From: Antedon bifida
Taxonomy: Eukaryota > Echinodermata > Crinoidea > Comatulida > Antedonidae
Length of the DNA stretch: 64,000 bases
Assembly (NCBI GenBank): GCA_963402885.1
Contig: OY727103.1
Span: 126,501 to 190,500, forward strand
Direction of reading: 5' to 3'
The notes below the pieces were generated by a model that ran no database searches, had not been told where the DNA came from, and saw nothing but the letters and a program-made list of their open reading frames with translations. Both the position numbers and the translations under genes were made by a program. This document shows positions 1,354-31,400 of the stretch, in pieces. Positions within the stretch are counted from its first letter, which is position 1; each line of letters begins with the position of its first letter.

Positions 1354-1483
1354 CTGGTTTCGTTTGCTATTTTTGTCCACAGGATCTTCGGCAGCAAGCA
1401 TAGCACTACTGACCATAATCAATACAAGCACCACATTTGAAAAATAGTTGTGATTTACGATCAAGTAGCTAGCTTTGCGAAAC
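1354..1483 (-). CDS. Cav1: Cav1 exon 20: IIIS1
   Basis: 130 nt. [20 protein letters not shown] and then [13 protein letters not shown], matching IIIS1 of Cav1. Donor GTAACC, phase 0 out. It is the last channel exon I can find; exon 21 must lie before base 1. Confidence 0.96.
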
Positions 1484-4400: not shown

Positions 4401-7400
4401 CCAATACTGTACATCTTGATCACCATCTCAATCGTAAATACTATAACAAAGAATATGTTGGAACAATCTGAAAGATAAATAAATAAAAAATATTTAAAAT
4501 GTTTAGAAAAACAGCAAAACTGAACCAATTAAAGAAGGAGGAAATGAAGGAGAGGGAGAAATAAAAATGATTTAAAATTAATATTGATGTTTGCATAGAC
4601 AAATGGCACAACTGAACCAATTAAAGAAGAGGAGAGAGGAAGAAAGAAAAATGTTCAAACATATAAAGCTAAATAACAGAAATATGGAAAGGACCTTGGA
4701 GAATAAAGCTCAATTATTAATGTGTTATTAAGCTATTCACAGTAATATCATAATAATCACCACCATCATATGTTTCGTTTATCCCCTTTAATTGACAATA
4801 CAAGACTTTCTTCCACAGTCATAGCATACTTTCATCAAAAACATAAAAGACGCTATATTACAGCTGCCTTTATGTTGTCGCACTACAAGCTGAAAATCAC
4901 ATTCTTAATTCTTAAAATTGAATAGGATACATATTCATACATGTAAAAACTAAGTAAGGACAACTAAATTATTGCATATAATATTTGGTAGTATCATACC
5001 TTGAAAGGTTGTTAGCCATTTTGGTTGATTGTAATGAAATGAAGCTAGTATACATGTATTAATAAACACCATTACAATGACTATCCAATAAAATGTCTGT
5101 GATTTCACGGCCTGCCTGCAGGCACGTAAACAACGACGATTCCAACGACGAAGAACTCTCCTAGAATAATAATAATTATTGATAAAGAATACTGCCTGCT
5201 ATACATTTTAGTGGTAGAGAAACAACAATGCATTAAAAATATGGTTTATGTATAATACAGATAAACAGATGTTGTGTATTACAAAACAATTCATGTGACA
5301 AATGTACTAAGATGTTCTGAATGTTGGTAGTCATGGATACTTTACTTCATATTCATGTAATTAATGTTGTATAGAACATAATCATTCTGTAATTGTTAGA
5401 TGAGCTATTTATAAATCAACCATAAAACTATACCGTTTCTTTTGAAACCAAGTTACTTGAAGATTTTCACTTTTATCATCGTCTGATTTATCAGAATAGT
5501 CGGACGACTCTGGAATTGGTTTTGCAACTGGAATTAAAAATAAATATATATAAATTTAAACTAATTTGTTTCTCCTTATCAAACTGATTAGTTGAGAAAA
5601 ACTGTTACTTTCACTAAAGGCCATGCCACAAAATTTGTTCCCAAATTTAATTTGGTCTTTGTCCACACACATATTTGATTTTGACACTTTATTTAACTTG
5701 TTAAAACCATTTTAATCTTTTGATTTGTGTGGATCTTCATTTTGATGTGTCTTATTGTACAGTTTTTATATGTTTCTCTTAAGGGAGGTGAGTAAATTTG
5801 AATTTGAATTGAATATTTTACTTTTTAACTCTTTTGTGAGTGGAAACAAAATATTAAATACATTGAATTTGATGTAGACAAAATATAACAGGATACACAA
5901 ATGATGCATTATAACAATAATAGTAAAGTAATTAGTATCAGCCCCAATTTATTTTAGTCTCTGTCCACACACTTATATTTTACTTTTTAACTCATTGTAT
6001 TTTGTGAGTGGAAAACAAAATATTCAACACATTGAATTGGATGTAGACAAAATATAAAAACAACAGGATCCACACAAAAGATGCATTATAACAAAACAGT
6101 CTTTTAGTTTAATATCAGCATTACAACATTTACAGCCCCTATGTTTAATAGTCATCAGTAAAAAATATTTTAAAACCAAGCAGAGTGACCGACAAAAACA
6201 AAATTTTATCTTCTGTAAAATGTAAAATAGTTCATAAACACCATTTCACATTGAAAAATATTTAAGAGTTAATATAAATATTCATTGGTTTGTGTACATA
6301 ATATTAAATAAAAAGCATATGAAATAAGTAAACAGTAATAAAAAGCAAAAATTCTATAAAACAAATATTATACTGCAACATGCAGAATGAGATTGCTTAT
6401 TCATGCATGACAAGGAACTAGACATTTACCATAAACTATTCATACCTTTCGTATTGAGCGTGCCCAGACGTTTCCATAAAACTGCAGCAGGCAAGATCAA
6501 AAAGAAATTGAGTTGTTAGTTAATTGTTAAATAATAAACTAAATGTGAAAAAACCAAAAACCAATTTGCAACTAAAATAGCAAAGAAATAAAATGCACTT
6601 TTATGTCCACTATGTTGAAACTAAAAACCTCTTAAAATGAAAAATATAGATAGTAGGCGCAATTGGGAAATAAAATAAGCGTAGCATAAATTTGTTTTTA
6701 AGGAACCAAAATAAAATGAACCCCTAAAGTTGGCCAGTATATTTATATAATTTAGAGGCATAGAGAGAGAAACTGGCCAGTGTTCTGTTGATAGTTGGAA
6801 ATTGGGAAATAACTTTAGCACAACATATTTTCTTGAATCAAATAAACTGATGTGAGTTGGATCTCTAAAGTATATCATTATATACACCAGTATATCCTTC
6901 AGCTAGTAGATGCCTTTTATCTACATTTATTTCTCTTCATCTCAAATTTATGTAGGTACCAAGCCGATTTAAATGTCAATACACTGATTATTATCCAACA
7001 TTAGGAAACGCTCCCAGAGGGATTGTCTCAGGTGATAAATTATATTTGCTTGATAAGTATATTCAGCAAACCTCCAACAATTACAAGAAATAAGGTATTG
7101 TAATGTACTATACAATACACCCACGAGCAAGATGAATTTCCAATTATAGAATGACAATTATCTTGTATTTTCTATGGCGTGCAAGTAATGTTGGCTTTGA
7201 TTTTTTCCTGAAAACTTGTCGGCCATGAGAAATCTTATTTGTTACAAAGGTTTATGGTACCTAGGAGGAAGGCAACGTATTAACCTCCCATCTAGTGCTA
7301 CTTACGGGATTATGGGATACGTAATCTGGATGATGGGATATGTAATTTGGATATTGGTGTTTAAACAAGTAGTAATGGGGTAATAGTGATGGACATAAAT

Positions 7401-10400
7401 TATGAGTTATTGATGAAGTAATCGATAAAAAGAAAAAATATAGATATTTATAGTAAAAAGAACAGTAATTGATAGCAAGTAAAATGGAAATAAAACCATA
7501 AAGTAAAGATTAAGAAAATTATGGATGGAAGTTAAGATAGTAGGATGAATGAGCCTAGAAATTGGATTTGTTTAGGGGTTAGGAAAAGAATGAAATAAAG
7601 GCTATTAAATAAAATATAAATAATATTTCAAATGTTAAAGCATATATATGTGTAATACATCTTATGTTATTAATGTTACCATGCGAAAGTATAACCATTG
7701 TTATATAATAATATTAATGCATATAATAAAATAAATCTGCTTCGCATAACATTTTAGAGTATAATAGTATCAATTTAAAATGGAGTTTAAAAGCATGTTA
7801 TTATATCCACTGGGGATGGCGCATTCATGGGAGAATAGTTTTACCTCATCTTGCAGTTTTGATGCGCTGTGCGCCCTCAGACATGTATTGGAACGCATGT
7901 ATATTTGAGGTAAAATATCGTTAAAAGGTTATAGTTCTATAAATTTTTCCATACATCATCGTATAACCTATTCAAGTCATTTATTGGTTAGGTGGCCACA
8001 TTCCCTTCTGTACATATATAAGCTATCCAACCATATTAATATTGGATAAGACAAATCACTGAGAAAATTATATTACGATCAAATTTGCAGCGTATACCCC
8101 CAAAAGAGTGATCACATTTGAAAACGCATCAGAATTGCTTCAACCACACTTCTCAACGTTAATAGCATTTCTTTGTCCAAAATTATAGCATTTTTGTTGA
8201 ACTAATGATCTCTGTTTTCTTATGACTGCAAACATTATATACACATCATTATGCACACATTATGTACAGTTTTAAACTACATTATATTTTGAAACTTTAA
8301 TATTTTTTGCATTCAAAATATTAATGATATTTTAATAAATTACATAAATTATAAATTCATTATTATGGATGTAGGCTATTCCACCCTCAATATACAAAAC
8401 TATAAATCATAAAATCACTAGTAGCCCAAAAGAGGAAATATAAACATTATGGTTAAGGAATATAACATCGTGTCATTTATCCCTCAGCACCATGAACATC
8501 ACTTTTTGATGATTTTTTAGCTGTTACAAATGATTAAAAAAAAAATGGATGAATATAATTTGGCTACCATTGGGATTCTCAAAGTATCCAATCACCAACC
8601 AAAAACATATAAAACCAAAAAAAATGGAAATAATGCCCCAAAAGCATACCACTCCAATAGGGTTCTGTAAATAAAACAGATTTTAACGCTGAGATAAAAC
8701 TTGTATCATCTATGTGCACATACAGTAGTAGGCTACAGTTCTAATTGTGTTTGTATGCTTAACTAAATCTCTTTAAATGTGTGCAACTTTAGGGAAAATT
8801 AAACTATATTTGACATTCTGCAATTTATAAAATGCCAAGCGTGTGCAATTGTTTAGTCTACCGTTTCAATCTTCTAAAAGTTTCTGTTTTATATGGCTTA
8901 ATTTTTAGTTTAAAATGATGATTATTGAAAACCTAATTACTTACCATGCTGAGGTGGTAAACTTGGTTTTTGTTCCTCAGTTTCTGGCTCAATATCTTCT
9001 GAAAAGAAAACAGTAATGTTTAAATTTTTCATCTAGTTGAAACTAATGTAGTTAGTTAAATGTAATTTAATGTAGCATAATTATCTAATCTTTAGAATAA
9101 TCATTTTTCTATCAAGATTATTATTTCTAATTTAATTATCAAATCCTGCAAAATTTTCTTCTTAAGCATTGATCCATTTTACATAGCACAAATAAAAAAC
9201 GCAATGAGGCAAGAATAGAGTAGGTGCAATGCCTATTGTTCACCTGGGTCATGTCACCTGCCTTCAGACTCTACTGTTTCCTTTTGTTATTATATTAAAA
9301 TTATTTCAACAACACACATTAGCAATTATTGATCCAAGTATTAAAAGTACTCCATATGATAGATATGACAGTAGCTATGTATTCGAACATTAAAGCACAA
9401 CACACTAAGAAGATGTTCTGCTTCAGAATCTCTAAGAGGGCCTAACAGGTCACAGGTCATTAAACTCTTTTTGATCCGAATATTAAAAGTACTCTATATG
9501 ACTTTATGACAGAAACTATGTGTATTCTAACATTAATAAGCACACCACTAAAGCTCTGTCTACACTATCAAACGTTATGTGACAACAAAATGTGAGGTGC
9601 CCATATATGGACATGATGATGTACTATATTTGGGCAAATCACTACCATATTTAGACACATCATACTTTTTTTGTCAAACTAGTTTGATAGGGTAGACAAA
9701 GCTTTAGAAGCAAATACTATTCTGCTTCAGAATCTCTAAGAGGGCCTAACAGGTCAAAGGTCATTAAACTCTTTAATTACATCAAAGTTAATTACCTGCT
9801 TTCATGATCCAATCCAAGTAGCCCTTAAGATCATCTTCAATTTGCTGTTTCTCTCGTATTTTTTTAAACTCTCCTTTTACCTTTGCTTTTTCTCGCTCTT
9901 TTGAAAATTCACTAAAACAAAAATTAAGAATAAAAGTCGTGAGTTGGGAACATAATAGATATAAGAACATGTATTATATAATACTTGATTGCAAAATAAT
10001 TTATCAGGCCAATGTGAGGCTGGCTCGGATCACCAAATGTAGATTCTCAATATTGTTCATTCGTATATGATGGCAAACGTAAGTAAATACTTAATTTACC
10101 CACTCCCTCCACAATAGCATTTCAATATTCAAGATGAATGCATATACTGCTATAGCTACAATAATATGTAACACAAATTGAAGCTAAGAGGCCAAAACTA
10201 GAAGTGGTATTCATTTGAGAAAGTTGTTTATTAGAGCAACATTATAAAATTGTAAAAGCAATAATTTCTGTTCATACAATCATTATGCAAAATGTTAGTT
10301 TAATGTTAATTTAAAATTAGATTTAACTGCACATAAAAGCTTATTAAACAAAATCACTTTTGACGGCTGCCACAGGTAAACGTGAGTAAACCCAGTTTAA

Positions 10401-13400
10401 CTGTTTTTTGTTGAACAGACAGTTTGGAGTTACCCCTTCACCCAAATACTATAATTATAAAATGTCCAGGAAATGTATTAGTATCATCTCTAGACCCAAA
10501 CATAGATATTGAGTATGCCAAGTCTGCCAATGTTAAGGCTTGCATATAAATGATAAGCGACACTTTAACATTGACTGCTGACAAGCTGATCTATCAAATG
10601 TTTTTAAATATTTATTTCAAAATTGAGGATAATTTATTATAAAAAACAAAATATTAGTTGAGTTATACACAAAAAACTGTTTATATGTAATAAACACATG
10701 GTTAATTAACAGTGTTAAAGAAGCAACACAATATTATACTAACTCATTTTTTTGAATTTTATATAAAAAAAATAATTTGTAAGAATTTTACATAAGATTT
10801 TATCTAATTACTTAAGTGTGCTTAGAAAGAAGATGGCCGCTGATCAAAAATGTTGAAAATAGGAAACGCAAACTAAATGTACATCCTGAAAGCACTAATG
10901 GTTTATTATAATATTTAAACATGCAGCTCAATTTATGTAATAAATTATTTGTAAATCTGACTAGCAACTCAGGTCACTTATCATATACAAATGTTTACAT
11001 ATTTGAAGGCCGCCATCAGAGAATACATAGGTGTAGAACATAATAGTAAGTGATGGATGACAAATGAGAATACATTTAAAAGCCATTCATGTGGCTTATA
11101 AGCTACATTACTTTCAATAGAACTTCAATATAGATATAATACATTTATTCATTTATACAATATCGCTAACCTTCCGAAATATGAAGAAATTGGATGTATT
11201 CATTAAAGGAAGATTATTTTATTATATAATAACGCAATATGTATAGAATAAACCCAGAGGCAAAACATATAGATTAAGTATTAATACATTTTGTATATGA
11301 AGACAGAAACCTTTGCTACGATTGAACCAGGGATGTGTGAGTCAAAACTATACCGTAGCAAAATTAAGATTCTCTTTTTCAATAATGCATCTATTTTTTA
11401 GCTAAGTTAGCATAATAATACTACAATTTAATAAAATGTTATATAAGGATAATTTGAAAAATTTGTAAACAAAAACTAAAGAATCTAAATATGTGAACTT
11501 ATCTAAGCGATGTGACCAACAAAATGATGACCTGCCAAGGCCAAACAAACGAGATCACGTTGAACGCATTATTCATATAAGCAGGTGATATGATTATACT
11601 AGTTTACATATTGTGCACTTTACGCCTCCCCTCCCCCAGGGGGAATCATCACCAGAATATGCTGCCAATTGCCAGGATCAATAACATTGATTGCTACTTA
11701 AAGTAGTAACAAATGTGGTGTTGTACGACATAACACAGATTTAGACCTGCTGCAAATAGATCACTATACTCAGCTGATGGAAAAATGAATACATACAGAT
11801 CCTCATGTTAAAATAATGATGAGAGACGTTTACTATATAACTTTAAAATATAATTTAATGACAAAAAAGGTAGACGTTTCTAAACCATCATTGAACCAAG
11901 AACAAAATGAGTAAAATGAACAAAATACAAAGCACTAAAGGGTGACAGGAAATACTACAATAAGTTGCTCATAATGAAATAACAATATTAATTTCTTAGA
12001 ACAATAATTAAAACTGCTGCAAATAGATCACTATACTCAGCTGATGGAAAAATGAATACATACAGATCCTCATGTTAAAATAATGATGAGAGACGTTTAC
12101 TATATAACTTTAAAATATAATTTAATGACAAAAAAGGTAGACGTTTCTAAACCATCATTGAACCAAGAACAAAATGAGTAAAATGAACAAAATACAAAGC
12201 ACTAAAGGGTGACAGGAAATACTACAATAAGTTGCTCATAATGAAATAACAATATTAATTTCTTAGAACAATAATAATATATTGAAAAAAAATTTTGATT
12301 ATGAATGATTTAAAATGTTGATAGTTAAATTATATTTTATCCAATTTTTTGGGATTGGCTCACGACAACAAGAATTTGCAAACGAATATAGTTGTTTATG
12401 AAATGTAGAAGAATCGTAAGAACTGACTGGCAAATGGCTACTGTACAATAAATCATTATGTTGACAATTTCCAATCAAACTTCTGATAATCTAGGTTATA
12501 TCTCCGAGGCTAGTTCATTGAGATTTTAAATCGTATCATTTCACGTAAATCTAGAATATCACGTAAACAATATATAACATGTCTGTTTACTCTGATGGTT
12601 AGAAATGAATTCAAAAAATGGAGGAAATTTTAGTCTTTCTATGAATAAAGCATTTTAAAATTCAATGACTATTTTGTACTGAATAAATATAAATAAATTT
12701 GTACAGTAATAGCAAACATAAGTAATTATTTATCAATTAAATTCCAAAAAGTAGAAAAAACAGTAATGACAGATTGAGATTATTGAAAAAATGTATGAAG
12801 GCAGGATCCCAAGAAGATGGAAATCTTGTGGCGGGTTGCCTTGACAAATAAAATTCATAAGAGCACAAAAATAATTTGAATTCCTATAGAGAAAGTTATA
12901 TAGTAATTATATTCATTTAGTTTAGTAAAGATAATACAAAATGGGATCTGTATAAATGCATTACTCATGCAAAACTAGCCACAATGACGGAATGGCTTAA
13001 AGGCTGGATTTAAATAAATGTGTGTACCGTTTGCGAGTTGTCATTATTGTTTAGGTTTACAGTGAGAAGCCCATTAGATGAGAACAGACTTTACGATCGG
13101 TAACCTGATTATGACACGGTATGATCCCTGTGTACTCATTACTCTTCAGGCACGTACGGAGTCACTAAACGATGCTGCGTTGCGCCGTTTCATTTAGACA
13201 ATCAAACATCATCGCGGAAAGTAAACCCACATAATTTCTACAAAATAATGTGTAGCAAACATCGTAGACAACGTCATAGAATATCTCGTTGATGATATTA
13301 AATATTGATAACGTACAGCACTGTATTTGACATGCATTAAATTGTGTTATCGGTAATTAAGCTATTGGAGACTTACTGTATACTTTTTGACATACTTCAA

Positions 13401-16400
13401 TTCAATACAATTGTATTTTTTAAAGGCCATAAGATAGTTACAAACTGTTAATTTTAAATTTAGGCTACGAATATCTCATGTATAATTCTACTGTGTATAC
13501 TTATAATATACATACAAACATAATACTAAAGCATTATTCGCCTTTTTAATTAGAAATGTTAAAGGGGACCAGAGATGTGTATTTGTACCTCAAGTTCATG
13601 TTGCACAAATCTGCTAATATTTGCTAATGTATTGTTTAAAGGTTTGCATGGCAAAATCAAACGTTCCACTTGACTTTTTGTATTTCAAATATTTGATTGC
13701 ATTAACTGTAATATAAGCTTACTAGTTCTTAAAAACAGTTATTTTGTTCTAATTCAAACAGGAATTTACACTAAATTCACAACAAAATTATTTAAAAAAT
13801 CAAGATCATGGAAATATGATGATGTTCGAGAGGAAAATTATGTATCCTGATGGTTGCCATAGATTTTTAGATTTTAGTAGCAATTTCAAGAAAAACTTGG
13901 GGTTCTAGACCCTAACAAAGCACTACACACAAATAGTTATAACAACAATTCTATATAATTTACAAAGTTAAATGAAAAGAGAAAAATAAACCAGAGAGAC
14001 AAAAGTGGAACAAGACAAATGAATGAAATGAAAAGAGAAAAATAAACCGGAGAGTCAAAAGTGGAACAAGAGAAATGAATGAAATGTATTTATATTAAAT
14101 TAAAAACACTTGGGACAATCAGAAAATGGAAAAGCACTTTAAAGCGGCTCGTTCCAAAGATTTCATACGTTGAATTGTTTTTGAGAATGTACTTAGATAC
14201 AAGTAGTAATGATTGTTCTTAGTTCAATAGTACTAATTATAAAAAGATGATGTGTTAAAACAGCAACTTAATATCAAAGCTTCCGCACATTCAAAGGTCG
14301 CGACTGGAGTCACTATTTGCTTTAATTTACACTACTGAAAACCAAAATAACTAACATCAATGTATAAAAGTGTAATATACTAAACAATGAATTATCATGT
14401 AGGAATGGAATTATCATGCTAAGATTAAATACCAAATTAAATCTAATGTAGACCTAATGGTAGGATGTCTGCATGTTAAGCAGAAGATTCTGGGTTCGAA
14501 TCTCGTTGGGATGTCGTTTTTCTACGCTTACAGATTTCCTCATCTTTACCATTTCAAAATGATGTATTTTATGTAGGCCTGTACATTTATGATTATGTTC
14601 ATTTTTATTTAATGTATAAATTAAGAACAGACTAAAAAAACTATTAAATTATAAGACTTAAAAAATTATTGTTTTTCTATTTTCCTTTCTTTCATCAAAA
14701 AGTCAAAAAGTTAATGGTAAATCAATAGACAACTACTATTATATAAGATATGCAAAGATAATCAGGTACATTGTATAGTTTTGTCATTATAAAGCCACCC
14801 ACGCTAAGTAAGTAGTTTACATGTCATGAACAAAATGCAAAGATAAAACCATCTCTACCAGACATTTTGCACCGTTCAAGTATATACTTATCTTAATTAA
14901 GTTCTCCACAACAAACCCTCTTAAAGATAAATGCACTAAAAATCCAACTTTAGGAATTTAAGTACGATCACAAACTCTAGACTTAACGACACCAGACACA
15001 ACTTAGTCTTAGAATCTTCTAAGCTTTTGATAACAGAAAGTTAGCAACGTTTTAGTCACTTCTCTAACGAACCAACTAATTAATACATATCACCCTCCCC
15101 GACTATTTAATTTATATATTATGTTTATATTAAAAAAATAATATAAATTGTCTGTTGTACTTCATGTTATTAAAACAAACTTAAATATTCACTGTTTATC
15201 TATTCTGTAGTATTCATTTCAGTCTTCCTACACAAGTTGACTATTTACTATAAAATATCACGTACACTGTAAAACTACCTACCATGTTATAAACGAAATT
15301 AAAAAAAAAAATGTTGAGGTCAAAGGTTATTGGCTGAATTTGACAGCAATATGTGAGCATTTTATATTTATGAATATTGGTATGTAATGCAAGCAACCAA
15401 TTATTATTCCTGTATGCTTTTATATTGAATGCTAAATTTATGTATTGGCCAACAGCATGATTTTAGCTACACGAAATGCCTAAATACTTCTAATAGATAA
15501 TGTGTATTACTTTATTACAACATAAACAGTGGCAGATATTTTGCATAGAGGGCGGGCGGTAGCTTAGGTATGAAAATTAAATCTAGATAAAATAATATAT
15601 TTTAATGTGTCAATGTCAGGAAAGCAAATTTCAAAATATTAGTGGACGAATAAATATATATCTATATACTACTGAACATTTAATATTATTATTGAATAAA
15701 TTGCATGAAAGTTTGATGGGAATTTAATATTATGCAAGATTACCAATTATCTAAATAAAATGAAATTAGGCAATTATTTTAATAAAAAATATTTTTAATA
15801 TCTTAAAAAACAAGATTATCTGAAAGTGTTATAATAGGGAATATTGTACAATAAAATGATTTAATTTCAATAATTATAAATGACATACTTTGTAAAAAAA
15901 TGAATATTTAATATATTTAAAAAGGTATAATATAGTAAACATGCAGAGGTCTAAAAAGTGTTAGTAAAAATGACGTGAGGATGGTCTCCAATGAGGAATT
16001 TAATGTTATATAGCGTGCAACATTCAGTAGGTATATTATGTAATATATTCATATTTAAAAACGGATTATTTTAATAAAGACCAAACAAGGAATTCAAGTT
16101 TACTTATAAATACAGAGGTATATTATATATAACTGTATATTTAAAAAAAAACATAAAAATCTGCAAATATTACAAATGTTTAGTTAAAAAACAATTAAAA
16201 AATGGTTTCTTTTTAAAAATAATAAAATGCATCATATTGGAATCTGAATTAGCAAATGCGATATATTTTTTATGGGTTTTTATTTTTTAGGGGAAAAACT
16301 GAGTCTATCTATAATGTTTAAGTTTGGTTGGCAGAAAATGTCTAGTAAAAACAGTGCTGATAACTTTGTTTGCCATTTTAATTTGAATAAACCAAAAATG

Positions 16401-19400
16401 AATTCAAATCTAATAATACATGGAATAGGTGTAGATCGAATACTGCAACCTATAGTAACATACTTATTAAAGTTTTTGTGTTCAAGTTACAAAAAGGACT
16501 AAAGCCTAATAGTTCTCTATACATACATTGTTGTGGCAGGATAGTTTGACTAAATATGGTCACTGTTAAAAGTACAAAATGATGCATCAATGGATTCACC
16601 ATAGCACAGTGTACAGTAGGCCTACTTGGTGTGTCCCCTGATAATTCTGTCTCCTCTATTTACAACATTTTACAATTTATTACACCTATCAATTTAATCT
16701 AATATCAGCAGAATAAGCAATGTTTAAAATTTAAAATATTACATAACAAAATTGATATTGAATGGTGCATTATTGATGAGTATTAAGTTATCTTTACAAA
16801 GGATCTAGCCAATCATATTCAGACATAGAAATAAAAATACTCCTTAAGCTATTATAAAATATTGTGTAATGTATGCAAATAACTCCCTAGCTTTTGCATT
16901 TTTTCATCACTAGCTGCTTCATATGGTCATACCCAAGTATGAATAATATCTACATTTATGTATCCAACAAAAAAAAGAAATTAATTTATCTGTATGGTTT
17001 CTAGAGATTAATATTTGCGTCAGTAATCATTTAAGAAATAAATATACAACTTCTCTCCCCAACTAAGACATAAAAAATATGAGAAGGGGAAACCTAACAA
17101 TAATAGCCGAAAATGAAATAACAAAATAATAATAATAACAAAAAAAGGTAATATTAATAATTATTACAATTAGTTTTAGCTTGTGTTATGCTGTTGTTTA
17201 CTTTGCTAAATTTAAATTTAGGAAGTTTACAATCTTCCCAATTGCAACAGATTCCAATATGGCTTACAAAAGCTCGGCATGCACCAACGGCGAAAACAAA
17301 AACCAAAGACACCTCAAAAAAGGGGCAAAAAATACAGCTTGTTTTGTTAAGACGGCACGCCATGCCAACAGATTGGTGGCGTCGTTCTGTTGACTTACCC
17401 ACTTAAGACACCAAGAATAAGGTTAAGAACAAAGAATGAGCCCAAGAGAATAAGACTGACGAAATAGATCCATGGCCAACTTGGGCTCACAGAGTCGTTA
17501 ATCTGTGGGATGAAGAATAATACAACAGAAACATTCAATTAATGTTTAATGTAACATAGGAATAATATTGCAAAATGTTACCACCTTTCGTCTGTCAAAA
17601 AGTCATTCTTGAGTACACAACACATACTGCTGTCTTCATTGTAAGTTAAAAATCAATATCTGATTTCAGAATTATCTTTCCCTTATAAAAGTGATTAAAA
17701 ATCTATATTTTATAATTTCATAAATTCAATAACTTTTTTATTTTCTAACAATAGCTCAATCAAAAATTACAAGGTTAATTAGTGTTTCCATGACAACAAA
17801 TCTTGTTTTTTTCTTTAATGTAAAAATGAAATGATAAATTCGTTAATTTTGAAGATTTGAATTTCTTACAAGAATGACTTTAATGACAAATGAGAGATTA
17901 TACATTTTGCAGACGGTGATTTTATCACCACCTAAACACTTACCCACTTAAAACACCAAGAACTAGATTGAGCACGAAGAATGAGCCAACGATAATAAGA
18001 CTCACAAAATACACCCACGGCCAGTTGCTGCCCATGGCATCATTAATCTGCCAATCAAACACAAGCAATGTTAGTCCCACCCACTAAGCCACGCCCCTCT
18101 ATTAGCCATAATATTCATACAGCCACGTCGTACACATTTTACAAACAAAGTTTAAATAAATCATATCAGCTGAACCACTTCAAAGCCATGCAAAAGCCAC
18201 ACCCCAAAAATAATTAAGCCACACCTGTAACAAAGCCACACCTCTAATAAAAGCCACATCTCTATAAAAGCCACACCTTAACAAAATCAACATCATCATC
18301 ATCATCATCATCCGTTACGCTATTCGTCTTGGGTAGACATTGCGTACGCTAATCGTTTCCATGACTCTCTTTCGGTGGTCTGATGACCTGTCAACAAAAG
18401 CCACATCTCTAATAAAAGCCACACCTCTAACAAATGCCACACCTCTAACAAATGCTACACCTCTAATAAAAGCCACATCTCTAGCATAAGCAACAACCTA
18501 ACAAAGCCACACCTCTAGCATAAGCAACACCTCTAACATAGCCACACCTCTAACAAAAGCCACACCTATAACAAAAGCCACATCTCTAATAAAAGCCACA
18601 CCTATAACAAAAGCCACACCTCTAATAAATGCTACACCTATAACAAAAGCCACATCTCTAATAAAAGCCACACCTATAACAAAAGCCACATCTCTAATAA
18701 AAGCCACACCTCTAACAAAAGCCACACCTCTAACAAATGCTACACCTCTAACATAGCCACACCTCCAACAAAAGCCACACCTATAACAAAAGCCACACCT
18801 CTGGCGGATTGTAGAAAAGTGACGAAGTAACTTTTCTACAATCCGCCAGACTGGTGTCAGTTTTTTTTTTTTTTGTGTTTGTATTTTTAATTGTATTATA
18901 TGTCTTCTGGAAAATAAATGAATTGAAAAAGCCACACCTCTATAAAAGCCATACCGCTGACAAAGTTACACCCCTAACAAATGTCACACGTCATCTAACA
19001 GAAGCCACACTTCTAACAAAAGCCACGCCCAAACAAATTGGCACACCTAGCAAATATTGACAGAACAATCAGATTGATACAACATTGCAATTATGAGTAT
19101 TAATAAGCTCATCCCTTCTAATTCTTTGATTTTCAAACAATTCATCCATACCCTCCTCACTACACTATATCCAATATCTCTGTTAAATCTTCACACCCAC
19201 ATGTGGTGTTTGCTGTCAACAGTTTCTTTTCTCTTGTCCCTCTCTACTAATTGACTGACATTCAAATCTCTAATGTCTAACTAACACACCTTTATCCCAT
19301 CAATGCTTAATGTCTTCTGACTGGTTAATCGATCAGCATGAATTCTTGACTTAGATAGCAAATATATATAAGCACTCAATCATGGCTAAGAACAATCACC

Positions 19401-22400
19401 AACAGTGGGAAATATGATCAGAAATACATGCGTATCAAATTTGTAAGAATACCAAACACAAATTAGAGCAAATAACATGTGAACAAGTTAAATGATTTAA
19501 AAAAACAAATGCAAATTTTATAAACAAATTGTAAAGAATCAATTACAATTTTTTAAATAACAAAATTAAGTTCCAACCCTGTTAGATGATAATGAAAAAT
19601 ATGAAATTTTATGTAATGAACCAAATAATAATAATGTCAGACACCATATTTTAGTTTACGACAAAAAACATTGTAATTTTTAAATGTTGATTGCCATTTT
19701 GTATTGAGTCATATTTCGATGTGTTTTAAGAGCAGACAATTTGCGATTTAAAATTTATTTATATCTATTATTTCAACTACAAAATATATACATAAATATA
19801 AAAAACGAATAATTATAGGATACTAAAATAAATGATAGCAAAACATAAGAAGTTGAGGCAATACTTACATAATACATTATCTGTGTCCAGCCCTCCATCG
19901 TAATACATTGGAAGACAGTAAGCATAGCTAGACCTATGTTATCAAAGTTCGTTATGCCTTTATTAGGCCCCTCCCATAACTCTAAGCATTCATAGTTTGT
20001 AGGACAATTATATCCAGTTGTATTTGAGCACGGGCGAGGCACTTGCTCTATTTCTCTAATACCATCTAAAAAAAAAAAGAAACAGTTTTCTGGTAATAAG
20101 TTTATTTATAACCCGTAAAGCTCTGTCTACATTATCAAACTAGTTTGACAAAAAATGTGTGATGTGCCCAAATATGGTAGTGATATGACATCATCATGTC
20201 CATATATGGGAACATCACATTTTTTGTCACATAAAGTTTGAGAGTGTAGACAGAGCTTAATACTTATATAATATGACCACTGTTTCAAATATCCAAAACA
20301 ACAACCATTTTTCTCATAACTTTAAAGCGTGGAACCAAAGGTCTTCTTACCTGAATTTGTGAAATAGCACGCACTATGAAGCTTTCCCATAAATAATTCC
20401 AGACCAATAATTGCATAAATGATGATAACAAAAATTACTAATAGCGCAATGTGTAGTAGAGGCACCATTGCACGTAGAATTGCATTTAGGACGACTTGTA
20501 AACCTACAACAACAAAAATACACACAGATACATTTTGTGTTACTCTATACCCATTTAGTTACAAGGAGTGTTACATACAAAACTGATGCAAAGATCAAAT
20601 TATACAATAGAGAAAAAATGAATTTACTCAGAAACATACAGATTAGCCCATTAGTGCCATTTTCATGGAAACATTTGATCAAAAGTGTACTTTTTAATAA
20701 ACAAGCAATAGACGTCAGTTGGATTTTGGATAATGATATGCAGAAAAAGATTGTACAATTATATGAATCATGAATTCATATCGTTGTTTTAAGCCGACTT
20801 GCCACTGTCAGCATAGCAGCAAAGAATCAAACACATCAACAGTGATGTAAAGCTACATAATTTAGTATTGTATGCAAGCCCCAAGGACCAAAAACCCCTT
20901 GATTTAAATTGATTGATGTTCTGGTTGCAAAAGTATGTTTACAATGTTTTACATTCAATCTGTTTGAATATTAAATTACATTTATACATATATGAATGCA
21001 ATATTTATTCTAAACTTTCTTTATAAAACGAAATGCTACCTAACATTTTGGCATTATGCTGTATAACCTTGACTCATGGTCAAAGGCGGTCAATGAAATG
21101 ACCGTTATTTTGCTAAAACACAATAACTGGCTAAATGGCCATCTGTTGTGTCTTTTTAACAATATTTGAAATTTGTGACATTTGCTGCCAAAAATTGGGG
21201 TCAATTATTCACATGGTAATTAATCAGTTACTTGCTCGCAGCAAACAGACCAGACTTAAGCAGCAGAAACAGACCCGACTTAAGACATCATTGTATAAAT
21301 AATTTATATATGTCAAACGATAGCGAATTAGTAACATAATATTAATATCAAATAAATGTCAACAATATTAATACTATAACAACTTGATGGCCTTTATACA
21401 TCAATATGACTTTATTAAACAATTTGTACGACAGGCCATCTTATTAATTAGTTATAAAAATGAGAAATTTATTTTCGATTGGGGACACTAATTATCTAGC
21501 ACTGGCTGGCTATATAGACTGTTAGTAGGAATGATATATAGTCTTCATACTGTTCCAAATATATATAGTATATTTTCATGTCAAACCTCCTAGTTTAGTT
21601 TTAACACCACAACCAAACAATCTTAAAATAGTAAGTAATATTTATTCTTTTCAAGAACAGTACAATTTACAGCATAATTAATATATGAAAATAAATACAA
21701 AGAATAATACAAACATGCACAAAAAATGTAATTTGTAAGGGTTTATTTTCAAACTATGAAAGGGTTCTTATCAAAATGGTATTTTAAGTCTATACTTACT
21801 TGGAACCCCTGAAACTAGTCGTAATGGTCTGACAACACGAAAGGCTCTCAACGCTTTAACATCTAGTGTTGAACTTGATGATGTATTTAAGTCTGTCAGA
21901 ATCGTACTAATAATCCTGTTGAAAAATAAGAACATTAACATTTCAAGCTGGCTTGTATGAAAAATATGAATTTCAAAATTTACATAGCAAAAACAAAATA
22001 AACAATCTAATTTTTACTTTTAATATAATATTCTAATTCCAGCAATGGTACATGTTGTTTTAAAAAACAGATTTATTTTAAAAAAATGATGGCGTTACAT
22101 AAAAAAGTTACATCACTTCGAAAGGCCTTTTTTATAGACATACATTCTATTCTACTGAAAATTAAGGTAAAGATTTACAATACATCGTGATAATCAGGCC
22201 AATTTATCACTTTGTCGTCTTGATAACAAAAGAGCTTTGTAACAAGTGTGATTAAGACTGTATTATAGATTTCTATTTATAGAGTGTTTTACTAAAACTA
22301 CAAATTCTGTAAATGTAAATTGTATGCCAACACTATCAACTTCCTTGGTATTAATTTGTTAGCAAACATACTTCCTAAAACAATACGTAATATTGTCATA

Positions 22401-25400
22401 CATTTTTATCAATAGTTTCCCAATCAGTTTCCAATCCAAATATCAAAAACATTTTGAAATGAAATCTTTCTACAGTGCAATTATCAAATTTAACTTAAAA
22501 GTTCTACAAACAGCCATCATTTCTTTTTGAGTAAACATCAGAAAAGACATCAGTGTGTCATTGCCTGCAATAAATCATGGTCCATTAACGTTGAACTGTT
22601 TTTAGAAAGATGGAATTAAGCATGCAAGTGTTGGATAAAAAAACTAAAACTGTTAATAATGTATTACTTTTCTTACTAACGTATAAATGAAACCAAACTG
22701 TATATAAACATGCACACATTTTATTAAACCATACAACTTCAATATAATCTTAATAAATTGTAAAACCAGTCTGTTATCATTTTAATTTCTAAATATGGCG
22801 CAAGGAGTTGAAAAGATTAAAGTATGCTCAGATATTCTCTTTCTTTATGAAATAGATACACTTTCACTAGTACATTTAGTATCAGACACACAATCAGTAC
22901 TGTAGGTACAACTAAACCAGTTTACTTAAAACATCTTACTACTGGCCTGTCAAACGTCCCATTTAGTTTAGTCTTAATTTCAAACAACTAAACAATCTTA
23001 AAATGTAAAAACAATTTACTTTAAACAAAAAAATGTTAAAGGTTTCATTTTATTAGATGGCCTACTAATATATAACAATATCATGACCACTTTCTAAACT
23101 TACTTTCTAACCCTCTTCTAATCTTTCCAGTACTAATACTAACTAAAGATTTAAATGATTTGTGTTAGACTATGCCATCATTTCAACTCAACTAAAACGT
23201 TCCAGAATCTATTGCGTAGGAAAGTTTTTTTGTAAAGCTCTTTAAACCCATAATCTTCTGTTCTTATCTTTTTTAGCCTCAACCCTTACTTTAACTTTAC
23301 TTGAACTCATCACTTGTTAGAATCTTGTCCCCCAGTGAAAACTTGTTAGTTTAAGCATGTACTTCCAAATGCCAAGTAAAACGTCGGACATGTTGAAATT
23401 GAGTGGTCAGTTAAGCAATTCCAACAGTCTCAATAATCACACCCCTCAATTTACAATCAAATGCTGAACTCTTTTAGTCACAAAATGAAATGTAAACAAT
23501 AAAAAGGGGATTTATTATGAGTAACCTCACTTTGGCGGGTCGATAGGTTTTGCCAAAAATATGCCGGTATCAAAATTGTTTAATCATCTTGTAAGATTAG
23601 GAGAATTAATCAAAGATCTTGATGTTTTCTTGTTCTTTAATTCAATTAATGAATTCATCCATTGATTAAGAAACGAACCGTAAATGAAAGTTAACACGCA
23701 GAAGAAATGAAAGTCTCTTTATTTAAAATCAATCTTACAATGAAAATATCACTTGCCGGAGATGACCCTATTGATCTTCCTACTGATAGGTGAGTGTGTC
23801 AAAATATTTACATTTTATTACAATTTTATTATTTAGAATTTCTTTCAATTCAAATTTATATAATAAATATTATATTTTTATATCTGAATCACCCAGAATA
23901 AAAAGTGTGCACTAGAAGAAAATGACAATGGATGAGGAAGGAGAAGGAGGAGAAGCAAAGGGATGAAGGGAGAAACATGAGGAAAGAATAAGAAGAATGA
24001 ACATTATTCTTTGCCTAAAAAATTGGATATAAACTACAGTCTATACTACGATATGATAAAAATAATATATCTCTCCTTAATAATTAATGTGTGCTATAAA
24101 ATGGCCTTGAAAAAGTCAGAATAATTAAAATAATTTTGACAAAAGGTTTAAAATAAATTATTCATAAATAATATTGCAGACCGTATGCCACGTATATGTT
24201 TTGTTATTTTTTTTATTTCTTAAATGATGCGCTGGAAAAAAAAATCTATCCAAAATTTATTTATAGAAACAATTTGACAAGACTTGTAGATGATAAAAAT
24301 GCACCCAGTTAAAGCAATTCAAAATGTACATAACCATTAGTATAGAATTATACTTCCAATTAAAAACATAAAAATAGTTGCTATGAATTAAAATTCGCAA
24401 TTAAAACCCAAATAACAAAAACTACCCATTTTTAAAATATACAGAAGCTAATAAACAATCTTACAAATTTTAAAATTCTCCATGATTCTTCAAAATTCTG
24501 ACCTTTGACTTTGTGGATATTTAAAAAATTATTATAAACAGAGCAAGTCAATTTCAAAAGGATTTAACTGACGACATTTCTAAAATGTTGAAATAAGATT
24601 TTAAAGACAACGTTATAAAACAGTAATTCTTAATTCCGTTCTCATCGTGCAGTGTATGCTTAGAGGATAAATCATAAAACAAGACTAACAAACATAGCTT
24701 ATCAGTTTTATTTTAAATTCCTCGTTAAAAATAAAATGCTTCTTGAAATGCATAATGGCAATGCTATATTGTACAACTTTTTCAAGATTTCTTTCCACAA
24801 ATTATTTAATTGTTTATAGTGGGGGGGTGGAGGGGGGGGGGGAGCATATCAGAAACAAATTTTAAATTCTTCCTGCTTTATTAAAGGTGTGTTCACTAGA
24901 CTAGAGTTAAGTCTTCCAGATTTAAACGAGTCTGAATTAGAGTTTATACAACCCACACAAGTGCAGGTTAACTCTATTTCACCTCCAATACATCTAGGCC
25001 TGGTGAAATGGATGGGAATAAATACAATGGATGTTTTGCCATGGCAACATGGCACCAGGAGGGGTTAGCTGGGATGTGCATTGCATGGTGTTCACTCCTA
25101 GTACATATGTTCTACCAGATTACAACAGGGGATATAAGATGTATTATTGGCTAAATGATTAACTGTATTTGAAATACATAAATAGCTTGTTTTTAAATTG
25201 TGAAATGTTAATTTTTGTTATGTTCATATCATCTCATTAAAGCATACATAACATTAGCATAATAGCTCATGCAGTATCTGCTAAAAACCCTTAATTTTAT
25301 GTCCCTTAAAATGTTTGGATTTTCCACATGAAAACATCTCTGTGTCACTTTTAGCTGATTATCTAATATTATCATATTGCGAACATTGCTTTTCCGGAAA

Positions 25401-28400
25401 AAATTAAGACTGCCTAAAATAATGAGTATTAATGTATTTTTGTCAGCAACAGCAAGTACTTAACATACCAATTAGGGCATGAGAACTAAAGCACATGCTT
25501 TACAAGTTACAGTCTGTTACTTTGGTATAATATAAGAATTGAACCAGGAACATACAGTATAAACATCAAACCATAGTATCAATATTTTAGAATATGTAAA
25601 AAAAAAAAATCAATGGATAATTAATTTTATATAAGTAAATCTTTCATTTGTTGTCTTATTTTTCATTTTAAATTAATGTTTCATTAAATTTATCGGGACT
25701 TGAAAATTATCCTATTAATTAAAAACATTTTGCATAATATAAAACACTAGACAGTAGTAAATAAAATTCAGAGAAAACAAACAAAATGTTTAACCCACAC
25801 AAGAAGGATGTCATTAAACGTATCTTTCAACTTTGACCTTTCATGCAGAGATTCTCGCTCATTGTCTAATTTGCTTAAGGCCACTGGCCGCCGATCCACC
25901 ATATTGAAACATCTGATTAATCTCAAGTGCAACCATGGCAACCAAGTTTCCCATCAGCCATTAGTATGATATTCTTCTAAGATGATTGTTATCTCACTGT
26001 ATGTATCAGTAATACAATCAGTGCTATGGGTTTTTAATTAATTAAACAACATAATGTTGTAGTTTTATATATTTTTTTAATAAATTTCATGCTCCACTTT
26101 TTTCATAAGATGTTTTTAGTTTAATTTTTATGCATATTGCCAGAGACTATATCAAAATATTGATTCGAAATGCAATGCAATGTTGGGTGACAATGTTGCT
26201 AGAGATAATGATTATGATAATGATGATTATAACGCTAAATCATTTGACGAAGAACATAAATATATATACAACAATACAGCAGTCTTTACAAGATTAAAAA
26301 GGACTAATAAAACGGTTAATAACTCATAGATTTTTGTTGTCAATTACAATAAAACAAAACATTAAGTTTTATAATAGTCATTTTTAATGAAAATCAATAA
26401 ATCTGTCAAAGTACACTTACCCAATAAGAACAATAATAAAATCCAGTAAATTCCAAGCATTTCGTAGGTAAGCTCCATTGTGCATAAGAAAACCACATGC
26501 GATTATTTTAAGAACTGCTTCGGCTGTAAAAATCGCAAGAAAAGCATACTCGATCTTTTCCTAAAAACAAAAAGAATTCAGTATTAAATAAAGTATCATT
26601 TAGTAAACTATATAATTCATGCAATTTTACAAGCTGTATAAATTCCAAACAAATATAGTTGGAGTGGAGTTGGTCATGTGTTGAAATATATTGAAGCAAC
26701 ATAAAGAAAATGAATAAATAAATGTTCCATTAAAATAAAATGAGATTAAATGATGATATTATAAAGCTATTATCTATGTTGTTTGTAGTTCGCATCCAAA
26801 TAATAAAGAAACAAATAATTCATAAAAGATGCAATGAGAGAAAAAAAAGAATGAAAGAAAAGAGAAGGAGTGGCAGAATGAAAGAAGCAATAAGGCCGCC
26901 AAGAATCGAACAGATCTAAAAATTCTCTCTTCTTTAATTCCTTTGCACCATCTCAATCAGTCACAGTAATTTCCTCGCATAATTTACAATCAACAAAACA
27001 AAGAAGCAAAATCTGCTACAGATTTGTTTCTGTGATGAATTTTGTGGCAAACCACTTTAGGCTACTTAATACCATTCTGGCTTAAAGCAATCAAATGAGA
27101 AAGCTAAGCAAATATTATTTCTTTCTGTTATTTGGTTTTGAAGAAATTGACTAAATATTCTAATTGACAAAACTCAATTCAGTGCTAAGGAAGTAATTAA
27201 AAATATGTATTCATGGGCTACAGATACGGTCGCGTTTCAAACCGAATAGGTCGTGTTTCAAATTAGTCGTGTTTAGAATCGGTCACGTATATGGCATGCC
27301 AAATGTGCCTTTTAGCTTACCCATCCTAAAAACCTAACCACACTAAAAACAATCCGAACCATCCTAACAACCTGTATATCTGTATCCAATATTGGTGATA
27401 ACGTACGTTGGTCAGGGATTATTAATAGCAAAATGTGCTTTTGTGAAATTATTTTGAAATTGCGACATGGACAGAATTGGATTTGAACCAAGCCTCATCA
27501 ATTACACAAACACCATGCAAGTAATCAATCAACCATTACCACATATTGTATCTTTCCTTCTTCATTATTGCAATGTATATTTATCCAATTCATTTAAAAA
27601 TCAATATTATTGAGGCACAATTGTTTTGTAATATTGTATCATACAGTATTCATTTACCATATTACTAGGCAAGTCACTACTGTGTCTAAAATATTAACCA
27701 TGCCTTGTTGAGTGATTTCGAGCTCATGCCTCATGGGCGTCGCTTTCGATGCCCGGCATGTAGAACTAACCGGAAAAGGAATTCGTTTTTGCCAGTGGCT
27801 ATTCGACTCTTAAATTCTTGAACCTTGACTCTTTTTTTTTTTCTATTTTGTACTGTGTATTGTGATATTTTGTATATTTTGTAAGATCATTTTAATCCAG
27901 ACCTTTTTATTTGAATTGCCCCGTGTGGGATGATTAAAGAATTTTGAATTGAATTGAATTGAATTGAATAGTAGCAACATAATACTAATATTTCCACTAT
28001 GATATTGTATATGTTTTTTTATGCACAACTACTTTGTTATTACAATACTACTATTCCATCAGTATACGATTATTTTACATCATGTTTGCACCTACGGACT
28101 AGCACCACGATATGGACTAGCACCGCGATATGGACTAGCACCGCGATATGGACTAGTACCCTATGGACCATTGAGGCTAAAAAAGGAAAGGGCCATCAAG
28201 GGGTCATATCAGGGATTTTTCCCCAAAGCAAGCCAGTTGCTTTATTAGAGAATTACAGAAAGGAGAATTATTACACTTAGGGCTATATAGTTTTTATATA
28301 ATTGACAAACCGCGCTGTCTTCTGTGAAATAGAACAAGTGCAAATGTACCCTTACACAGAAAGAGTGTATCACCTGGGGGACAAGTGCAAATGTACCCTT

Positions 28401-31400
28401 ACACAGAAAGAGTGTATCACCTGGGGGACAAGTGTGAATGTACCCTTACACAGAAAGAGTGTATCACCTAAGGGGGAATTTTAACTAACTTGAAACTTAT
28501 TGGGTGTGGGTTATACCATGGGCTAATGTGCCTCTTGTGACCCACAGTCAGTTATGCTTCGAAGTCCTTACTTGACCAATACATGTCAAATGATGGTCAA
28601 GCATTATCAAGCAGTGGTGGCGCCAGGATTTGCCCGACGGGGGGGCCGAATTCCCCGACGGGGGGCGCCGAATTCCCCGACCGGGTAGGGGGGGGCGGGG
28701 CCGTACGCGCCGTACGCGCGAAAGAGGGGGTGGGTTTGGGAGGGGGTATCCCCCTCCTGAGCCTCAGAAAATTTTGAAAAAATAGATGCTTACACACTGT
28801 TTAATAGGCTAGAGCAACTAGTTTCCATTACATTTAATAACAATGTTACATAATGTAAATTTAAATAAATCCTTCCTAAATACTCTAATACGGATCTTTT
28901 TCGACGAACTAATAATAAACTTTGATCGAAAAACACTTCAAACGAAATGAACATTTGGTAATGCGGCACTCCGAAAATGCCTCGATAGTGCATGTGTTTA
29001 GTGTACGACTGTGCTTTGGTGGTCTGTTAACCTCAGATATATACCCTATAGCCGGGTGAATAACTCAATGTAATTTAGTATACAATGATTGCCGTAATCG
29101 CCGTGTCTATAACACAAATCAATAAAATGCCAAATCACCACACACGTTTTTTCGGCCGTGTACATAGAACAAGACATTTCATGTTTATGTTATGTCTATG
29201 AAATAATAATAAAAGAACATCATGTTTCTCGTTTTTTATTGTTTATACTGCATACCATTATATAAAAAATCTTCATACGCGAGAAAAAAGTTCACGATAT
29301 TACACTCTACTCTGTACGGGGGTGTAAATATACAGGTCCACGCTAACGCTTGCACACGGACCAGGGCGGAAAATGGTGTATTTTTGGAGAGTGATGACGT
29401 CAGCATTCACACGAGGAGCAAGCTAAGACAACGTGATGCTGGTAGTGGGAGTGCATGTGTTTTGAAAATAACTCGGTTGTGGGTATTTTCCGAAGATTTT
29501 AAATCACGTTTTCTTTTTAAACTCTTGAATTCATAAATAGTAATTAAACTCTTAGCTCTTTCACTTAAGTAGGCCTATTTACACAACTATAGCTCTAGCC
29601 TACTCTTCTTAATTAAAAGAGTCAAGTGCGTCGAATCTGCGTTTAGCGACGGTCGCGGGTTTGGTGCATCTTTTTTCCCCTTTAGAATTAAGGTGGGTGG
29701 CTAGCCACCCTATTCACCCCCTAGATCGAGATTTATGCGCGAAAAGAAACGTGATCAGACCCTGTTTTATGGTTCGGGCCAACCGCTTCCTCTTTCCAAA
29801 TCGAACCCCCACCCAAACCCCTTTAATCGACAGCGAACATACACGCGGTACACCAATGGTTATTGGTAAATTGAAACAATTCGTAAACTCAACCGTGAGA
29901 ACATAACTCGTACCTTTATCCCTGTATGAACGTACGTCGATGCGTAGTTGCAAATGAATCTCCGATTTTCGCCTGGAATCTGGAAAATACACATTTTGGT
30001 CCCTGGATGTAATATGATACAGCCCAGATATGTCGACGCGTATACCGCAGTGAGCCGGCCGGGCCATGAAAGATTCGTACAAAGAGACACCGCCAGACAA
30101 ATGCGTACCACATACTGTTTACTTCGCTGTCAGTGTATCGTATGTACGTCAAAAATAGAATGCCGCAGTTACTTACAATATATAGTAGTACACTTAATAA
30201 TGGTTTTATTTTTTACCAGAAAAGAAATGATCATATTTTTCTCCCCGACAATAAGGCCAATACTCCCCGACAGGGGGGCCAGCTTTCCCCGACGGGGGGC
30301 CCTGGCCCCCCTGGCCCCCCCCGCTGGCGCCACCACTGTTATCAAGTACATTATGAATGTATGTATGTATATTATGTGTGGTTTTTTTATACTAACTAGA
30401 ACATTTTATGGGCAGTAGCCTCATTACTTTATGAAACCTGTTGCCATCTCTTAGCTGATGAGCTAAATAAATACAATTTACAGCCATGATTCAACTGATC
30501 TATAAAGCAAGCTGTTGCATGTTATTAAAAATGATTTTTACGATTTGTTATATTACTCCAATGTTTATTTGTACACTTTGAAATCAATGTCTATTCAGAA
30601 AGCATTTCAATATATTTTGACTGAATCAATATTATAAAGAGTGCCACTATGTACTTATTTTGTTATTTAAGGTACAATACAGTATATTTCCTAACAAATT
30701 AAATCTATTTTAATAAATACGTAACTAAATAAAAAATAACTCAAAACTAATTACAAAGAAGTTTAAAATCATAAATCATACCTTTAAGAATTTAATCAGT
30801 CTCTTAAAGTGGAAATATAAAAAAAAAGCTATTAAAACATACAACACTAAATCTGACTAAAGATATTAATGTTGCAGCAACTAACACATTGCAGCTAACA
30901 CATTGCAGCTAACACATTGCAGTTAACACATTGCAGCTAACACATTGCAGCTAACACATTGCAGCTAACACATTGCAGCTAACAAATTGTACCTACTGTA
31001 ACACATTGCAGCTAACACATTGTACCTACTGTAAACACATTGCAGCTAACATAGCTAAGACATTGGTATTTGTTCTTATATACAAAAAAAATCTATAGAA
31101 CATAACATTTTGAAATAAAGAACAAAGTATGAACTAAATCTACAGTGACTGACAATAAAGTTCAACAACCAGAATTAGTGTTGCATAGATTATACAGCAT
31201 TATAAACAAGAAATGAAAGATATAAAAACAATTAAAGCTGTAACTAATGTATCTTGATTGCTCCAACTACTAAATTCAAATTATCAGTCACATCTTAATA
31301 AAACACTACTCATAAAGTACTGTGACCTATCCACCATCTTAAATTTATTGCATATTATTGAAGTTTTAACCAAAAAAAGTTACAAATTATGTGTCATATT

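Follow-up and report, generated by a model that had tools for sequence, protein, structure and literature searches.

A tandem pair of frame-exclusive IS6 exons in a Cav1 gene of the feather star Antedon bifida

The Cav1 gene and its two IS6 exons

The window, a 64,000-nt stretch of the Antedon bifida genome (contig OY727103.1, positions 126,501 to 190,500), contains on its minus strand the first two-fifths or so of a Cav1 (L-type) alpha-1 gene. The closest named protein among the matches listed was an L-type alpha-1D-like isoform X3 from Antedon mediterranea (P0001), at 98% over the 345 residues searched. When P0001 was mapped back onto the DNA, 1,663 of its 2,155 residues aligned; 32 of these were mismatched, some lying at exon edges. 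Residues 6 to 917 fell, with gaps, into the window, where the mapped gene begins at residue 6 and reaches the start of domain III (1336..48013, minus strand); no location was found for the first five residues in this mapping. The remainder of the gene, down to the C-terminus, lies on the same contig directly below window base 1 (stretches L002 to L004). The motifs TMEGW, TGEDW, TFEGW, and TGEAW, which hold the pore glutamates of the four domains, are present in this order, and so is, in its place among them, the Cav1-type beta-subunit binding linker EFSKEREK..., which identifies the gene as a Cav1 (L-type) alpha-1.

Two 104-nt exons encoding IS6, the pore-lining helix of domain I, lie next to each other in this gene. 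Copy 1 comes first in the transcript (17944..18047, minus strand) and encodes a protein segment identical to that of P0001; copy 2 comes second (17399..17502, minus strand) and has an open frame bordered by AG and GTAAGT. They are separated by a 441-nt GT-AG intron (17503..17943, minus strand). Both share an upstream partner, exon 7 (19869..20065, minus strand), which encodes the P-loop of domain I with CITMEGW, and a downstream partner, exon 9 (9796..9911, minus strand), which finishes the last IS6 codon and encodes the beginning of the I-II linker, including the motif that binds the beta subunit. Exon 7, both copies, and exon 9 all begin after an AG acceptor; the donor reads GTAAGT in exon 7 and both copies and GTAATT in exon 9. 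The acceptors of the pair read ...TTTGATTGGCAG (copy 1) and ...TTCATCCCACAG (copy 2), and the donors read GTAAGTGT and GTAAGTCA, respectively. The two copies have equal phase and complete splice borders. A first-pass annotation of this DNA had described two complete IS6 exons of this length, phase, and spacing, and the coordinates and splice sites bear this out.

Each copy translates to 35 residues, and the two share 78 of 104 nt and 26 of 35 amino acids (74%). Twenty codons differ, 11 silently and 9 with a change of residue. The copies are identical at residues 9 to 11, 13 to 18, 21 to 28, and 30 to 35, and five of the nine residue differences fall at residues 4 to 8, the others being at 12, 19, 20, and 29. 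In Cav1.2, where the exon corresponds to chain residues 372 to 406, positions 402 and 406 align with two glycines that both copies keep, and the pair marks variable IS6 positions, in the outer turn, beside invariant ones. When used as a query in the 184 kb containing the mapped gene, each copy retrieved the other at an E value of ∼1e-16, the next matches being at 0.07 and 0.13, so their similarity is not due to chance. No third IS6 copy was found in the 184 kb.

Several repeats accompany the exons of this gene. Intron 7 carries an 18-bp minisatellite (AACAAAAGCCACACCTCT) with 23 copies at window positions 18393-18802, ∼350 nt upstream of copy 1, and further copies at 18216-18294 and 18927-19026; it is G/U-rich on the transcript strand. 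The intron before the IIIS6 exon carries a 59-bp minisatellite (L002:4962-5619; 11.1 copies, 96% match) whose unit includes an acceptor-like CAG and ∼46 nt from the beginning of the IIIS6 exon. The true IIIS6 exon starts in the last unit, and ∼10 acceptor-like copies precede the real acceptor. A near-identical partial tandem duplicate of the domain III pore exon (L002:5791-5871) repeats its 3' half with the donor, has no evident acceptor of its own, and places STIEGW beside STFEGW. Upstream of the mapped exons, an Rfam tRNA match of 43 bits (window 50642-50710, minus strand) was not called by ARAGORN.

Reading frame, constraint, and proposed splicing of the pair

We joined the exons in silico. 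The joins of exon 7 and exon 9 through copy 1 alone or copy 2 alone kept an open frame, while inclusion of both copies led to a stop within copy 2 (GLTTL*) and omission of both led to a stop at the junction (YY*). The two copies are adjacent homologous exons of equal phase whose joint inclusion or joint skipping breaks the frame. The first-pass annotation had argued that the frame rules out joint use, and the stop in copy 2 confirms it.

It could be that copy 2 is no working alternative, either because the duplicate is decaying or because it is a poison exon that, when included together with copy 1, merely reduces the amount of channel. Three observations fit such a reading: joining both copies creates a stop; the Antedon isoform listed, P0001 from A. 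mediterranea, contains the copy 1 segment; and no copy 2 product was found among the matches listed in three protein searches, each covering the best 120 of ∼8,000 scored proteins, nor did copy 2 as the query find a carrier protein in the best 120 of 7,758. Isoforms of a single species may be merged in these lists, the P0001 entry representing 7 sequences. The exon itself argues the other way, as copy 2 has a complete frame without a stop, complete borders, the same residues as copy 1 at 21 to 28 and 30 to 35, and a pyrimidine tract better than that of copy 1 (0.75 versus 0.60). Moreover, the NG86 comparison of the two copies gave a high dS of 1.55 and a low dN of 0.16. The dS value was undefined in 63 of 300 codon bootstraps, and the 2.5% point of the 237 defined values was 0.60. 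On a neutral copy 2 branch of 0.3, half of that value, the absence of a stop together with at most 8 changes occurred in 0.2% of simulations; the probability was 0.07 for a branch of 0.2 and 0.26 for a branch of 0.15, and with only 13 changes on the copy 2 branch, neutral decay was not rejected (P = 0.26). We consider a nonworking copy 2 very unlikely. Judging from the sequence, copy 2 is likely under constraint and the IS6 pair is probably functional.

We propose that the copies would be spliced one per transcript, yielding two channel forms, and that transcripts with both or neither copy would undergo nonsense-mediated decay. Since the intron between the copies measures 441 nt and both donors are GTAAGT, mutual exclusion would need neither a steric nor a U12 mechanism, and would instead be enforced by frame and regulation. 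A candidate regulatory element is UGCAUG, an Rbfox-type motif, which precedes the copy 1 acceptor by ∼140 nt (18187..18192, minus strand) and follows the copy 2 donor by ∼115 nt (17278..17283, minus strand), with a putative function at both sites, and is absent between the copies. Among 180,000 positions along the gene strand in these 184 kb, 923 (0.5%) have UGCAUG in both 200-nt flanks, a figure to be read with the motif having been picked post hoc. In Cav1.2, Rbfox acts as a repressor at exon 9*, from an upstream site, and as an enhancer at exon 33, from a downstream site (PMC10995029). If this position rule is applied to the crinoid layout, copy 2 would be favored where Rbfox is present; a tissue factor would then pick the copy, with an Rbfox-type protein repressing copy 1 and favoring copy 2. 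In vertebrates, PTBP1 affects the 8a/8 choice; in mouse it is described as repressing 8a (PMC5748662), and reporters gave more exon 8A with PTBP1 (PMC11043036). RNA pairing between the flanking introns was considered as a selector and discarded: the longest duplexes, of 12, 13, and 18 pairs, were within the range of 15 shuffles each, and the 18-pair duplex is a triplet repeat.

Residues 4 to 8 lie between the pore loop and the helix, at the outer mouth. The choice of copy may thus tune the outer mouth and how IS6 packs, with possible consequences for gating, the alpha2-delta contact, and drug sensitivity, and it would leave unchanged the selectivity filter, which is encoded in exon 7. Exons 8 and 8a of Cav1.2 are reported to alter dihydropyridine sensitivity with similar gating (PMC3596553), and the role of 8a/8b switching in Cav1.3 is called unknown in PMC7781618. 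A lineage with its own pair would make this latter question testable.

Resemblance to vertebrate exons 8a and 8

We then compared the two copies with the IS6 segments of other animals. The invertebrate rows come from proteins picked among the matches listed in the three protein searches, with identical IS6 rows merged, which gave 51 distinct rows. This count and the tree set leave aside three of four unnamed (lgn) rows, and P0001 was omitted as identical to copy 1; P0181, P0182, P0232, P0233, P0291, and P0293 were tallied in the segment count and are absent from the 51 rows. A one-residue gap was inserted by hand in the Lytechinus row. The 11 vertebrate rows were chosen from the types in the segment count; for P0135, P0155, P0162, and P0289, in whose records no paralogue is named, the paralogue was assumed from sequence.

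The first-pass annotation had noted NDAMG and PWVYF in copy 1 and WPWIYF in copy 2, and had read them as the contrast between human exons 8a and 8. In agreement with that annotation, we take MNDAMG...ELPWVYF to be the upstream exon 8a. The motifs are present in the crinoid sequence as it had stated; their distribution, though, does not support the correspondence. Residue M5 occurs in 18 of the 51 invertebrate rows, I12 in 37, and V12 in 2. The other crinoid, Anneissia (P0121), reads INDAMGSIWPWIYF and the sea cucumber Apostichopus reads INDAMGSHWPWIYF, both with NDAMG and PWIYF in a single exon. Among vertebrates, the Cav1.3 8-type exon, the commonest vertebrate row among the matches (113 of the counted segments), reads VNDAIGWEWPWVYF with PWVYF, and the 8a-type exon named CAC1F (P0253) reads MQDAMGHELPWIYF with PWIYF. 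Five letters, M1, M5, L9, V18, and F20, were found in all four vertebrate 8a rows and in none of the eight 8-type rows, and copy 1, the upstream copy, has one of them, M5. E8 was dropped as a sixth 8a letter, as it also occurs in 8-type rows; copy 1 does not have it. Because the motifs are scattered over invertebrates and vertebrate types, they are not diagnostic, and neither of the two inferences drawn from them, a pair predating vertebrates or the same contrast selected twice, follows. What stands of the first-pass annotation is the presence of duplicated, frame-exclusive IS6 exons in an invertebrate Cav1; the likeness of the copies to human 8a and 8 is not supported by these comparisons.

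The single nearest row of each copy is an echinoderm exon. Copy 1 is nearest to Anneissia (33/35 residues) and is about as close to the Cav1.3 8-type rows (30/35) as to the 8a rows (27 to 29/35). Copy 2 is nearest to Holothuria (29/35), followed among vertebrates by 8-type rows (25 to 27/35) and 8a rows (21 to 23/35). Against solved structures, the exon with its flank matched best with an 8a-type Cav1.3 for copy 1 and with an exon-8-type Cav1.2 for copy 2, which fits the 8a/8 pairing of the first-pass annotation; with the bare copy 2 exon, Cav1.1 ranked first. The upstream position of the 8a-like copy likewise matches the human order, and two copies allow just two orders.

The positions at which the crinoid copies differ overlap with those of Cav1.3 8a/8b at 3 sites (P = 0.16, and 0.32 within variable columns), and in view of these P values we do not claim convergence of the differing positions. 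The pseudoscorpion protein P0122 was rejected as an example of an exon pair, as its high score stems from a region with identical IS6 that is present twice in its record. Three heterobranch snail proteins (P0130, P0184, and P0189) have an unusually divergent IS6 outer turn (VSRSLGSE, INNAINSD, and INKSHGPH, respectively) with the rest of the segment nearly unchanged; alternative IS6 exons are possible in these snails too.

Origin of the pair

A pair in an echinoderm, at the very exon that vertebrate heart, muscle, and brain channels use, would mean either that the switch is older and shared or that one site was used twice. The first-pass annotation had suggested a phylogeny of IS6 exons. The best tree, built from 64 IS6 rows, grouped copy 1 with Anneissia (97/75) and copy 2 with the starfish rows (95/71, weak and not starred), and its vertebrate 8a clade (100/99) excluded copy 1. 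With 35 residues, columns are few, 33 of the 61 inner branches are open, and the groups bearing on the origin are weak. Clade tests on the same rows showed that uniting copy 1, Anneissia, and 8a costs 1.8 log units (P = 0.44), uniting copy 2 with 8 costs 6.3 (P = 0.30), and uniting the two copies costs 3.9 (P = 0.38). A clade of copy 1, Anneissia, and copy 2 costs 14.4 log units (P = 0.13), which counts against the explanation that we favor below. Constrained trees on 38 of the 64 rows scored −575.4 for independent duplication, −577.1 for a shared pair, and −580.7 for a shared pair with reversed pairing, the first two being 1.6 log units apart before rounding; the corresponding AU values, on 35 residues, were 0.60, 0.47, and 0.22, and none of the three was rejected.

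These results have to be weighed against the possibility that IS6 was duplicated before the split of echinoderms and vertebrates, copy 1 being the orthologue of 8a and copy 2 that of 8, with most invertebrates having lost one exon. Length, phase, borders, and order are as in human (104 nt each, 8a upstream), the trees do not reject such a history, copy 2 is closer to 8-type than to 8a-type rows, and the flanked structure matches give the same pairing. Yet a shared intron position would by itself give the same borders and phase, a reversed pairing also escapes rejection by the trees, copy 1 has one 8a letter of five and sits about as near to the Cav1.3 8-type as to 8a, and motifs of the NDAMG/PWVYF type are dispersed among invertebrates and vertebrate types. 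Two further observations bear on the prior. The ancestral vertebrate gene is reported to have had three exon pairs (PMC9741552). For the companion pairs at IIIS2 (21/22) and IVS3 (31/32), which both CACNA1C and CACNA1D have kept, we found one exon each and no second copy in the 184 kb with the mapped gene. The ten independent Cav exon duplications described in human and fly are all at different exons (PMC9741552). As the companion pairs were not found and the human and fly events affect different exons, the prior leans to independence, and we judge an ancient shared pair unlikely. Claims of convergence are said to require more taxa (PMC5740500).

As far as sequence comparisons can tell, the pair is thus likely the product of an exon duplication within the echinoderm line that was independent of vertebrate 8a/8. 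Our best explanation as a whole, which we hold with moderate confidence, combines this independent echinoderm duplication with an IS6 pair that is likely spliced singly into two channel forms. Within it, the duplication may be old enough to precede the split of crinoids and starfish, the starfish then showing the copy 2 type. This would account for the grouping of copy 2 with starfish IS6 in the best tree and for L19, L20, and I29, which are common to copy 2 and the starfish rows; L19 was found in two starfish rows and Owenia only, among the 51 invertebrate rows. However, L19-L20 is also present in Owenia and in Cav1.1, L20 occurs in 22 and I29 in 18 of the 51 rows, and copy 2 is closer to the holothurian exon (29/35), the starfish falling outside its eight nearest rows (all with at least 27). 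We regard such an early date as a tentative option, on the unlikely side. More doubtful still is the wider scenario of an echinoderm-wide switch predating the feather star/starfish split and independent of 8a/8, in which the 104-nt exon would have been duplicated twice in deuterostomes, each time ending in an either/or splice enforced by the frame, and Rbfox-type motifs flanking each crinoid copy on its outer side would choose between the copies.

Comparison with known exon pairs

Among the open-licence papers listed in literature searches, no title or abstract beginning described paired IS6 exons in a Cav1 gene of an echinoderm, which is weak evidence of novelty. The closest known systems are exons 8a/8 of CACNA1C and 8a/8b of CACNA1D, which concern the same exon in the same channel family as the crinoid pair. 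Exons 8a and 8 of CACNA1C have 104 nt each (PMC11043036) and are adjacent, with 8a upstream (PMC5748662), and their length, like that of the crinoid copies, is not divisible by three; the human 8a-8 intron measures 302 nt from the coordinates in PMC5748662. Unlike the vertebrate pair, the crinoid copies differ chiefly at residues 4 to 8, and also at 12, 19, 20, and 29; of the letters that mark vertebrate 8a, copy 1 has M5 alone; and vertebrate Cav1 has the 21/22 and 31/32 pairs, for which no second copy was found in the crinoid 184 kb. The exons of CACNA1C and CACNA1D are known as mutually exclusive, whereas the use of the crinoid copies one at a time is predicted from the frame of the DNA.

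Outside vertebrates, tandem exon duplications in Cav genes are described for fly Ca-alpha1D, cacophony, and Ca-alpha1T (PMC9741552). The fly events are at exons other than the human ones (PMC9741552), whereas the crinoid pair is located at an exon that is duplicated in vertebrates. Invertebrate NALCN, likewise a four-domain channel, has duplicated alternative exons in its pore region (PMC9741552, PMC3557258); those exons alter the selectivity filter, in contrast to the crinoid pair, which leaves the domain I filter outside, in exon 7.
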